From: Rubrivivax sp.
GTDB taxonomy: Bacteria > Pseudomonadota > Gammaproteobacteria > Burkholderiales > Burkholderiaceae_C
Assembly: GCA_016789955.1 (NCBI GenBank)
Contig: JAEUPB010000067.1
Span: forward strand, 1-50,286
Direction: 5' to 3'
DNA length: 50,286 nt
In this document: positions 44,393 through 47,129 of the stretch, one piece after another
Layout of the letters: the number at the start of each line of letters is the position of its first letter
How positions within the stretch are numbered: the stretch's first letter is position 1
Made by a program: the position numbers and the translations under genes
The notes under the pieces: generated by a model
What the model was told of the DNA's origin: nothing
Database searches by the model: none
What the model saw: the letters and a program-made list of their open reading frames with translations, nothing else

Positions 44393-45934
44393 TCAACCCT
44401 GCGCCGCCACCCGATCGACCTTGCTGTGGAGCTTGTTCAGCGCCGACAGGTACGCCTTGGCCGAGGCCACCACGATGTCCGGATCCGCGCCGACGCCATT
44501 GACCACCCGGCCACCGTGCTGCAGGCGCACGGTGACCTCGCCTTGCGATTCGGTACTGCCGCTGGTGATGGCGTTCACCGAGTACAGCACGAGTTCCGCA
44601 CCGCTCTTGACCTGCGACTCGATGGCCTTGAGGCTGGCATCGACCGGTCCGTTGCCGTACGCCTCGGCGCGAAACTCGTCGGCTCCCATCGCGAAGGCCA
44701 CCTTGGCGAACGGCCGCTCGCCCATCTCGCTGCGCTGCGACAGCGCTAGAAGACGGTAGTGCTCGGCGTCGGGCGTGACGCTTTCGTCGCCGACCAATGC
44801 GATGATGTCCTCGTCGAAGATCTCGCTCTTGCGATCAGCCAGGTCCTTGAATCGGGCGAACGCGTTGTTGATGTCGGCCTCGCTCTCCAGCTCGATGCCC
44901 AGGTCCTGCAGCCGCTGCTTGAACGCATTGCGGCCAGAGAGCTTGCCCAGGACGATCTTGTTGGCGCTCCAGCCCACATCCTCGGCGCGCATGATCTCGT
45001 AGGTATCGCGCGCCTTGAGCACGCCGTCCTGGTGGATGCCGCTGGCGTGCGCGAAGGCGTTGGCGCCCACCACCGCCTTGTTTGGCTGCACGACGAAGCC
45101 GGTGGTCTGGCTGACCATGCGCGAGGCGGGCACGATCTGCGTGGTGTCGATGCCCACCTGCAGGCCGAAGTAGTCGCGCCGCGTCCTGACGGCCATCACC
45201 ACCTCCTCGAGCGAGCAGTTGCCTGCGCGCTCGCCCAGGCCGTTGATCGTGCACTCGATCTGGCGCGCGCCGCCGAGCTTCACGCCGGCCAGCGAGTTGG
45301 CCACCGCCATGCCCAGGTCGTTGTGGCAATGCACGCTCCACACCGCCTTGTCACTGTTGGGGATGCGCTCGCGCAGCTGGCGGATGAACTGGCCGTACAG
45401 CTCCGGGACTGCGTAGCCCACGGTATCGGGAATGTTGATCGTCGTGGCGCCCTCGGTGATGGCGGTCTCGAGCACGCGGCACAGGAAGTCGGGCTCGCTG
45501 CGGTAGCCGTCTTCGGGCGAGAACTCCACGTCCGCGCACAGGTTGCGCGCGAAGCGCACTGCCAGCCGTGCCTGCTCGTGCACCTGGTCCGGCGTCATGC
45601 GCAGCTTCTTCTCCATGTGCAGCGGCGACGTGGCGATGAAGGTGTGGATGCGCGCACGCGCCGCCGGCTTCAGGGCCTCCGCGGCACGCGAGATGTCGCG
45701 GTCGTTGGCGCGCGCCAGCGAGCAGACGACCGACTCCCTGATGTGGCTGGCGATCGAGCGCACACACTCGAAGTCGCCGTTGGAACTGGCCGCGAAGCCG
45801 GCTTCGATGATGTCCACCCGCAGCCGCTCCAGCTGCCGCGCGATGCGCAGCTTCTCGTCGCGGGTCATGGAGGCGCCGGGCGACTGCTCGCCGTCGCGCA
45901 AGGTGGTGTCGAAGATGATGAGCTTGTCGGTCAT
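44393..45934 (-). CDS. leuA: 2-isopropylmalate synthase
   Basis: A 513-residue enzyme that condenses acetyl-CoA with 2-oxoisovalerate, the first committed step of leucine synthesis. The catalytic TIM barrel starts with [19 protein letters not shown] and contains the metal-binding HCHNDLGMA and [13 protein letters not shown] motifs. The C-terminal LeuA regulatory domain (about 390-513) should bind leucine for feedback inhibition. I chose the second ATG (MTDKLIIFD) because AGGG lies seven bases before it; an ATG two codons upstream is also possible. It is preceded by a leader peptide and attenuator. Confidence 0.96.
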
Positions 45935-45990
45935 GGTCATGCCCTGGTGTCGATGGTGGCTTGCAGGCAGCGTTCGGAACCCTGAAAGGA

Positions 45991-46024
45991 CAACGGCCCG
46001 CTGCTTTGCGCTGGCGGGCCGTTG
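45991..46024 (-). terminator. Attenuator terminator hairpin of leuA
   Basis: On the transcribed (minus) strand CAACGGCCCGC (46024-46014) pairs perfectly over 11 bases with GCGGGCCGTTG (46001-45991) around a 12-base loop, followed by TCCTTTC. The U-tract is short, but stem strength is high. It lies 56 bases before the leuA start and about 40 bases after the leader stop. Its 5' arm can instead pair with the antiterminator segment. Confidence 0.75.
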
Positions 46025-46077
46025 ATCGGGGAAAGAAATGCTTGCCGGGAGAAGACGCGCGCGATCAGCGAACCCGC
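46014..46077 (-). promoter_or_regulatory. Antiterminator pairing of the leuA leader
   Basis: GCGGGTTCGCTGATCG (46077-46062) is complementary to CGATCAACGGCCCGC (46028-46014) in three blocks: six pairs (TGATCG/CGATCA), two pairs (CG/CG) and five pairs (GCGGG/CCCGC), separated by small mismatches. The second strand is the 5' arm of the terminator, so the two structures exclude each other. The first strand overlaps the leader stop codon and the 3' half of a pause hairpin. Confidence 0.7.
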
Positions 46078-46115
46078 GAGGGTCCTAGCAGTAGCAGGGC
46101 GATCGGCGAGGTCAT
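46065..46115 (-). CDS. leuA leader peptide (leucine attenuation)
   Basis: A 16-codon reading frame, [16 protein letters not shown], whose codons 7-10 are CTG CTA CTG CTA, four leucines in a row with two codons (CTA) that should be very rare in this GC-rich genome. Immediately downstream GGACCC (46085-46080) can pair with GGGTTC (46075-46070; one G-U pair) as a pause hairpin. A ribosome stalled at the Leu codons for lack of charged tRNA-Leu would cover GGACCC, free the next segment for antitermination and allow leuA expression. An in-frame ATG ten codons upstream would give 26 residues but coincides with the predicted transcription start. No strong ribosome binding site was seen. Confidence 0.8.
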
Positions 46116-46151
46116 CGCGAGATCGGGCGTGCGGCCGGAAGACATGGCGCG

Positions 46152-46179
46152 AATGTACCACGCGCCCCAGGCGTGGCAA
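46152..46179 (-). promoter_or_regulatory. Candidate promoter of the leuA leader transcript
   Basis: On the minus strand TTGCCA (46174-46179) and TACATT (46152-46157) are 16 bases apart, just after the pssA stop. Transcription would begin near 46145, about 30 bases before the leader ATG, so leuA can be expressed independently of the upstream ilv-pssA genes. Confidence 0.5.
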
Positions 46180-46207: not shown

Positions 46208-47089
46208 TCACGGGTGCAGGCCCTTTTCTTCCGGCTCGTCGGTCGAGGTGGCGATGACGCTGGTGCGCTGCCCCTTCGCCCTGCGCCAGGCATAGATGAA
46301 GTAGCCAGACAGCCCATACAGGCAGAACATGCCGAACAGCACGATCGGCGGGTGCACGTTGACCAGCGCGATCAGCAGCGCGATGGCCACGATCACCGCG
46401 AACGGCACGGTGCGCTTGCCGCCCCAGACCTTGAAGCTGTAGAACGGCGCATTGGTCACCATCGTCAGCCCAGAATAGAGGGTCACCCCGAAGGCCACCC
46501 AGGCGAGCCAAGGCAGCTTGTCTACCTCCTTGAAGCCGGCATCGTCCATGACCCAGATGAAGCCGACCACCAGGGCCGCGGCCGCGGGACTCGGCAGCCC
46601 TTGGAAGTAGCGCTTGTCGACCACCGCGATGTTGGTGTTGAAGCGGGCCAGCCGCAGCGCCGCACCGGCGCAGTAGACGAACGCGGCGATCAGTCCGGAC
46701 TTGCCCAGCCCCTTGAGCGCCCACTCATAGACGATGAGGGCCGGCGCGGCACCGAAGCCCACCATGTCGCACAGGCTGTCCATCTGCTCGCCGAACGCGC
46801 TCTGCGTGTGCGTCATGCGCGCGATGCGGCCGTCCAGGCTGTCCAGCACCGCAGCGCAGAAGATGGCGATGCAGGCCACCTCAAAGCGCCCGTTCATCGC
46901 CATCACCACGGCATAGAACCCGGCGAACAGCGCGGCCAGCGTGACCGCGTTGGGCAGCACATAGATGCCGCGCCGCTTGGGGCGCTGCATCTCGATGACT
47001 TCACCGGACTCCGCGCCATGGCCCGTCAAGGGGCCGGGCGCGGTCTCGCCCGGAAAGCCAGAGTGCGAAGCGCGCGCGGATTCGTTCAT
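46208..47089 (-). CDS. pssA: CDP-diacylglycerol-serine O-phosphatidyltransferase
   Basis: A 293-residue integral membrane enzyme that makes phosphatidylserine, the precursor of phosphatidylethanolamine. The CDP-alcohol phosphotransferase motif D-x2-D-G-x2-A-R-x8-G-x3-D-x3-D is present as DSLDGRIARMTHTQSAFGEQ followed by MDSLCD. Several hydrophobic segments follow. I chose ATG giving MNESARASH; an upstream in-frame start adds eight residues. It lies 40 bases after ilvC and before the leuA leader; pssA next to ilvC is common in related bacteria, although the pathways are unrelated. Confidence 0.94.
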   Translation of the reverse strand: MNESARASHSGFPGETAPGPLTGHGAESGEVIEMQRPKRRGIYVLPNAVTLAALFAGFYAVVMAMNGRFEVACIAIFCAAVLDSLDGRIARMTHTQSAFGEQMDSLCDMVGFGAAPALIVYEWALKGLGKSGLIAAFVYCAGAALRLARFNTNIAVVDKRYFQGLPSPAAAALVVGFIWVMDDAGFKEVDKLPWLAWVAFGVTLYSGLTMVTNAPFYSFKVWGGKRTVPFAVIVAIALLIALVNVHPPIVLFGMFCLYGLSGYFIYAWRRAKGQRTSVIATSTDEPEEKGLHP

Positions 47090-47129
47090 GGCGCAAGGAT
47101 ACGCCGCGCGCACCGGGGCCCGAGGGCCA

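Follow-up and report, generated by a model that had tools for sequence, protein, structure and literature searches.

The spacer between pssA and leuA in the window, the 50,286-nucleotide stretch of Rubrivivax sp. DNA analyzed here, very probably holds a ribosome-mediated transcription attenuator for leucine with a leaderless mRNA as the template for its leader peptide, as judged from the sequence and its comparison with relatives. On the minus strand, the spacer (about 46179-45982) carries a promoter, a short frame with a run of Leu codons, a terminator hairpin, and two pairings that exclude one another; all features of the leader given below lie on this strand. The upstream gene, pssA (46208..47113, minus strand), was assigned by NCBIfam PssA with 108 bits at a cut-off of 107, and the downstream gene, leuA (44393..45940, minus strand), was assigned by NCBIfam LeuA as the gene for 2-isopropylmalate synthase. 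Other NCBIfam assignments nearby were IlvC, IlvH, and the large acetolactate synthase subunit, the last of which is truncated at the contig end. A preliminary description of this DNA had proposed classical attenuation with all parts in the right order. The Leu run, the pairings, the terminator, and their order stand and are conserved; the start and length proposed for the leader, and the pause hairpin, do not.

The promoter scan found a -35-like hexamer, TTGCCA (46174..46179), separated by 16 nt from the hexamer TACATT (46157-46152), which together with a TG at 46160-46159 forms an extended -10 box, TGGTACATT (46152..46160). This was the only such site in the 1.7 kb scanned, with 0.1 in shuffles, in agreement with the promoter-like sequence noted earlier ahead of leuA; among relatives from the window's own group, the -35 matches are weak. 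Across the 5.26-Mb assembly, the pattern TGnTACATT-N6-ATG has a single match, which is the leuA leader, and the reversed control pattern has one match as well. An ATG at 46145, in frame with the Leu run, follows the -10 box at a distance of only 6 nt, so the transcript is predicted to start at the start codon, the basis for this leaderless 5′ end being the usual distance between a -10 box and the transcription start. This spacing is most simply explained by a leader transcript whose 5′ end would be its own AUG, and the leader most likely starts at ATG 46145 and comprises 26 codons (46065..46145) rather than 16 codons from an ATG at 46115.

We then compared the spacing across leuA upstream regions collected from relatives, of which there were 174, and 172 after removal of near-duplicates. 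Leu-cluster frames were chosen without promoter information by taking the ATG nearest the Leu run, and a GTG only if there was no ATG; such a frame was present in 123 regions, and 122 were scored. The gap from the -10 box to the leader start was 6 nt in 43 and 7 nt in 44 of these leuA leaders (87/122 together), and among 627 other ATGs in the same regions, which served as the control, 1.3% and 0.8% stood at those spacings. No -10 box at 5-9 nt was found at 21 of the 122 scored loci, and the window is included among them because the internal ATG was picked there. A joint rule, by which promoter and Leu frame lie 5-10 nt apart, selected 119/174 real regions versus 15/1740 dinucleotide-shuffled regions. 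This promoter-anchored set of 119 consists of 25 window-like leaders, 43 Comamonadaceae-like leaders, 35 leaders of the LLLR type described below, and 16 others. The promoter-to-ATG spacing is the distinctive feature of the arrangement, and it predicts a leaderless leader transcript.

The Leu codons with the presumed regulatory role, CTG CTA CTG CTA, occupy 46086..46097, with the final CTA 7 codons ahead of the stop, and the leuA leader is, as expected of an attenuator, a short frame rich in codons for the product. Of the Leu codons in the leaders, CTA accounts for 43.6% at the 25 loci of the window's group and for 49.8% at the 43 Comamonadaceae-like loci; the corresponding leuA genes use it for 0.7% and 0.3% of their Leu codons, respectively. 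Inside the 68 leaders, 151 of 154 CTA triplets are in frame. The distance from the final CTA to the stop is 7 codons in 21/25 loci of the window's group and 8 codons in 26/43 Comamonadaceae-like loci. Use of CTA is not general, since 28 of the 35 LLLR-type leaders lack it after the start (13/19 of their CTA triplets are in frame). Nor do these codons set the case apart, as had been suggested for a short leader with two of them: leuL of E. coli K-12 has four consecutive CTA codons, so CTA is not unusual for a leu leader.

Downstream of the Leu run, region 2, the 5′ arm of the antiterminator (GCGGGTTCGCTGATCG, 46062..46077), overlaps the leader stop codon (TGA, 46067-46065), and region 3, its 3′ arm (CGATCAACGGCCCGC, 46014..46028), overlaps the 5′ arm of the terminator. 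The two regions are complementary in two blocks of 5. The terminator hairpin (45991..46024) has a perfect 11-bp stem and a 12-nt loop and uses the same arm as antiterminator region 3. In the window, the hairpin is followed by a poor U-tract (GTTGTCCTTTC; tail TCCTTTCAG, 45982..45990). A simple terminator scan restricted to loops of 3-8 listed no site at the window leader, whose hairpin loop is 12 nt. The leader RNA as a whole folds to -66.7 kcal/mol versus a shuffle mean of -54.07 (z = -3.07), and 1 of 200 shuffles folded as well.

In 26 close relatives, the terminator is near-invariant, with 89.5% of cells paired and a single compensatory cell, a number that 40 of 500 shuffles also reached. 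The 44 distinct Comamonadaceae-like leaders have 94.5% of cells paired and 24 compensatory cells, a count seen in none of 500 shuffles. Antiterminator cells are paired at 81.9% in the window's group and 94.3% in the Comamonadaceae-like group, and slid versions reach at most 50.8%. In the alignments, L041 was left out, its leader being identical to that of L019; L013 belongs to the set of 26 and L053 and L059 to a set of 45, and these three loci were excluded from the folding and codon counts (25 and 43 loci). Both the antiterminator and the terminator sharing its arm, as originally described, are therefore kept in relatives, and the loss of the Leu codons or stems that the preliminary description had named as grounds for refutation did not occur. 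The covariation it had called for was found in the terminator of the Comamonadaceae-like group only, not in the terminator of the window's group, and not in the antiterminator of either group. The pause hairpin, drawn at 46085-46070, keeps 53.8% of its cells in the 26 relatives, compared with 66.3% after a one-base shift of the register; since the shifted register scores above the drawn one, this hairpin is unsupported as drawn, and we discarded it.

We also modeled the pairing of regions 2 and 3 with the ribosome in different positions. With the ribosome stalled on the middle Leu codon, a state in which the 3′ arm of the terminator was treated as not yet made, the pairing reached 0.87 in the window and exceeded 0.2 in 68/68 loci. 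The mean in this state was 0.64, compared with 0.25 for shuffled spacers; 67/68 loci lay above their own shuffle mean, and 32/68 matched or beat all 20 of their shuffled spacers. For a ribosome that has reached the stop, the model masks the RNA, so the pairing value of zero in that state is built in. With no ribosome, antiterminator pairing was 0.02 in the window and averaged 0.52 in the window's group and 0.21 in the Comamonadaceae-like group; region 2 is hidden by other upstream pairing in the window, but not generally in its group. The mean of 0.52 indicates that the classical rule by which no translation equals termination is not general. In equilibrium folding, the terminator wins in every modeled state, so the predicted switch must be kinetic. 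The spacer has the intrinsic terminator hairpin before a structural gene that is typical of attenuators, with its 11-bp stem kept in relatives and its U-tract poor in the window, and it has a mutually exclusive antiterminator at the level of complementarity only, the masking at the stop following from geometry.

The same attenuator might instead have a leader that starts at the internal in-frame ATG (46113..46115), or an ordinary 5′ UTR with a promoter further upstream, as the preliminary description held. We consider this unlikely. The ATG is indeed in frame, and the 16 codons that follow from it come near the typical leader length in the window's group (median 19 codons, range 15-26), but it lacks a -10 box at 5-9 nt, the 16 nt before it contain no Shine-Dalgarno sequence, and most relatives place the start 6-7 nt past the -10 box. 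A Shine-Dalgarno match is missing at 104/112 leader starts versus 5/112 leuA starts, although the -10 box partly forces the figure for the leaders. Given the spacing in relatives and the missing Shine-Dalgarno sequence, we dropped the 16-codon frame as the main reading; its Leu codons (46097-46086) stand, and its start and length give way to ATG 46145 and 26 codons. Because the window has this extra internal ATG, it could still provide a second start.

Two further readings leave out leucine-dependent decoding. A strong hairpin between two genes on the same strand would fit a mere terminator for readthrough from ilv-pssA, with a separate leuA promoter elsewhere and an incidental Leu frame. We give almost no credence to this reading and rejected it, since the promoter sits upstream of the hairpin, CTA is enriched in frame with a fixed distance from the final CTA to the stop, and complementarity between the terminator arm and the end of the leader is conserved. 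It is also highly improbable that regulation works through the peptide itself, either as an arrest peptide via its conserved end or in trans, and not through Leu codons that are decoded slowly. The ends of the peptides are conserved within groups (RVR and RAR, and LLLR plus a few residues in other families), as such a role would suggest; however, the CTA enrichment points to decoding, and in the window's group the final leader codons lie within region 2, so that the pairing explains their conservation.

The preferred reading, a leucine attenuator with a leaderless leader, starts from parts, spacing, conservation, and a folding geometry that are established by sequence and comparison; from these we infer the transcription start, translation, termination, and leucine response of the leuA leader. 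RNA polymerase would start at or beside the A of ATG 46145, and a ribosome would initiate at the 5′-terminal AUG. When leucyl-tRNA is plentiful, the ribosome would reach the TGA and cover region 2, leaving region 3 free, so that the terminator forms and transcription ends before leuA. When leucyl-tRNA is scarce, the ribosome would stall on CTG CTA CTG CTA with region 2 open; region 2 would then pair with region 3, the terminator would be pre-empted, and leuA would be transcribed.

We examined the distribution of the leader in 104 near-relative loci, which belong to the window's family or lie near it, some contigs having been included by LeuA identity alone; records of Piscinibacter, Ideonella, Methylibium, Rubrivivax, and Rivibacter are among the closest LeuA matches that carry a name. 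Of the recognized junctions, 62/65 of the pssA-leuA type have the leader and 0/16 of the cimA-leuA type do. The remaining 23 loci, whose context was left unnamed by the motif test, comprise 9 with the leader and 14 without. Counted among these 23 is L002 (contig C96, 4767-6308), a second leuA in the assembly that is 88% identical, directly follows a cimA-like gene, and lacks the leader; it may be a paralogue or stem from a contaminating contig, and the assembly is 80% complete. In other families of the order, 69 loci from 39 families were covered; with the joint rule given above, the leader was found in 47 loci from 24 families and in none from 15 families. Outside the order, one of 25 loci (L220-L244) has a candidate at 5-9 nt (L221), and for the candidates in two more the distance is 15 and 35 nt. 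In the upstream regions of ilvI, no similar leader was found in 26 scanned loci, which yielded one unrelated frame (L210); the ilvI set held 29 loci (L184-L212), of which L211 and L212 were unanchored, L201 was without upstream DNA, and two had less than 420 nt, and the anchoring was confirmed by eye in 5 loci only. By these counts of predicted leaders, the attenuator is distributed more widely than the preliminary description supposed.

Individual loci depart from the common arrangement. The leader before leuA in L013 contains about three tandem CTAGCGCTG units, and it is missing the usual stop inside region 2, unlike its relatives, so that the frame continues toward the terminator. The leaders of L133, L136, and L137, from another family, start with ATG TTG ATG after TATATT or TATAGT and are followed by a terminator hairpin of different sequence with a long T-tract. 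At the leuA locus of a Hydrogenophaga relative, the Rfam ilvH RNA (RF02993) matches with 85.7 bits (L064:101-168); the same model has no match in the window at the gathering threshold.

Many sister families keep a leaderless-looking Leu leader and lack a convincing terminator. We counted 35 leaders of this kind, almost all in other families, and their peptides finish with LLLR, or a close variant of it, and a few more residues (for example, L026, L142, L150, L161, and L171). A permissive scan found a hairpin with some T after it in 6/35, and none was of the shared GCCCG...CGGGC type. The 30 nt past the leader stop contain 42% C and 13% G in the LLLR type; the window's group, at 37% C and 16% G, is similarly C-rich, so C-richness is not peculiar to the LLLR type. 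The post-stop stretch of the LLLR type is unpaired at 0.61 versus 0.45 in shuffles and is less structured in 32/35 loci, and its pairing with the leuA Shine-Dalgarno sequence in these 35 leaders is at shuffle level (0.116 versus 0.105). By analogy with the tna operon, a Rho site past the leader stop is plausible in these terminatorless relatives; a passage of PMC1262725 draws the comparison with a tna operon-like Rho site for mycobacterial cys leaders. The unstructured, C-rich, and G-poor stretch would lie open under ample leucine, and a ribosome stalled on the conserved LLL just ahead of the stop would mask it. Extending this idea, we tentatively entertain, as a rather doubtful possibility, that betaproteobacteria share an ancestral leaderless leuL that works with an intrinsic terminator in the window's family and one small group and with Rho in many others, and that the leaderless start blocks antitermination of readthrough. 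RNA read through from ilv-pssA would be kept from being antiterminated because, as we propose, ribosomes make poor use of an internal AUG that lacks a Shine-Dalgarno sequence.

Among the closest known counterparts is the enterobacterial leuL (Rfam RF00512 Leu_leader), likewise a Leu-codon leader with CTA and a terminator hairpin before leuA. In E. coli, GGAG precedes the leuL start, whereas the window leader lacks a Shine-Dalgarno match and leaves no space for a 5′ UTR. The RF00512 model found E. coli leuL with 145.8 bits as a positive control and matched neither the window nor the 16 relatives scanned. Passages of the literature describe S. meliloti trpL as a leaderless attenuator peptide (PMC7298713) and cite the ilvBNC leader of C. 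glutamicum as lacking a ribosome-binding site (PMC4046766). As described there, both resemble the window leader in being read from a transcript that starts at the start codon or has no ribosome-binding site, and they differ in their codons (Trp, and a Val-containing leader) and in lineage. The latter source also mentions a putative C. glutamicum leuA leader peptide with four consecutive Leu codons, which shares the Leu run before leuA with the window and belongs to a different phylum. With these trpL, ilvBNC, and leuA leaders as precedents, the mechanism is already known. The LEU element of actinobacterial leuA is presented in part of PMC1262725 as a Leu-codon leader in many species in which no classical attenuator was recognized; it is described there by a pseudoknot in which the Leu codons pair with the leuA Shine-Dalgarno sequence, whereas the window has a terminator and an antiterminator. 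Putative branched-chain leader peptides across various Gram-negative species are mentioned in PMC6123439. In full-text searches of one open-access library, we found no report of a betaproteobacterial leuA leader or of its leaderless layout, and Vitreschak et al. 2004 may list betaproteobacterial cases.

Taken together, these data extend predicted leucine attenuation to a set of mostly environmental betaproteobacteria, whose version escapes the Rfam leucine-leader model. They suggest that an amino-acid switch has kept leaderless translation as a design choice in many families, and they make it possible to test concretely why a Shine-Dalgarno sequence would be avoided in an attenuator. The terminatorless relatives could show one regulatory peptide wired to two termination mechanisms.
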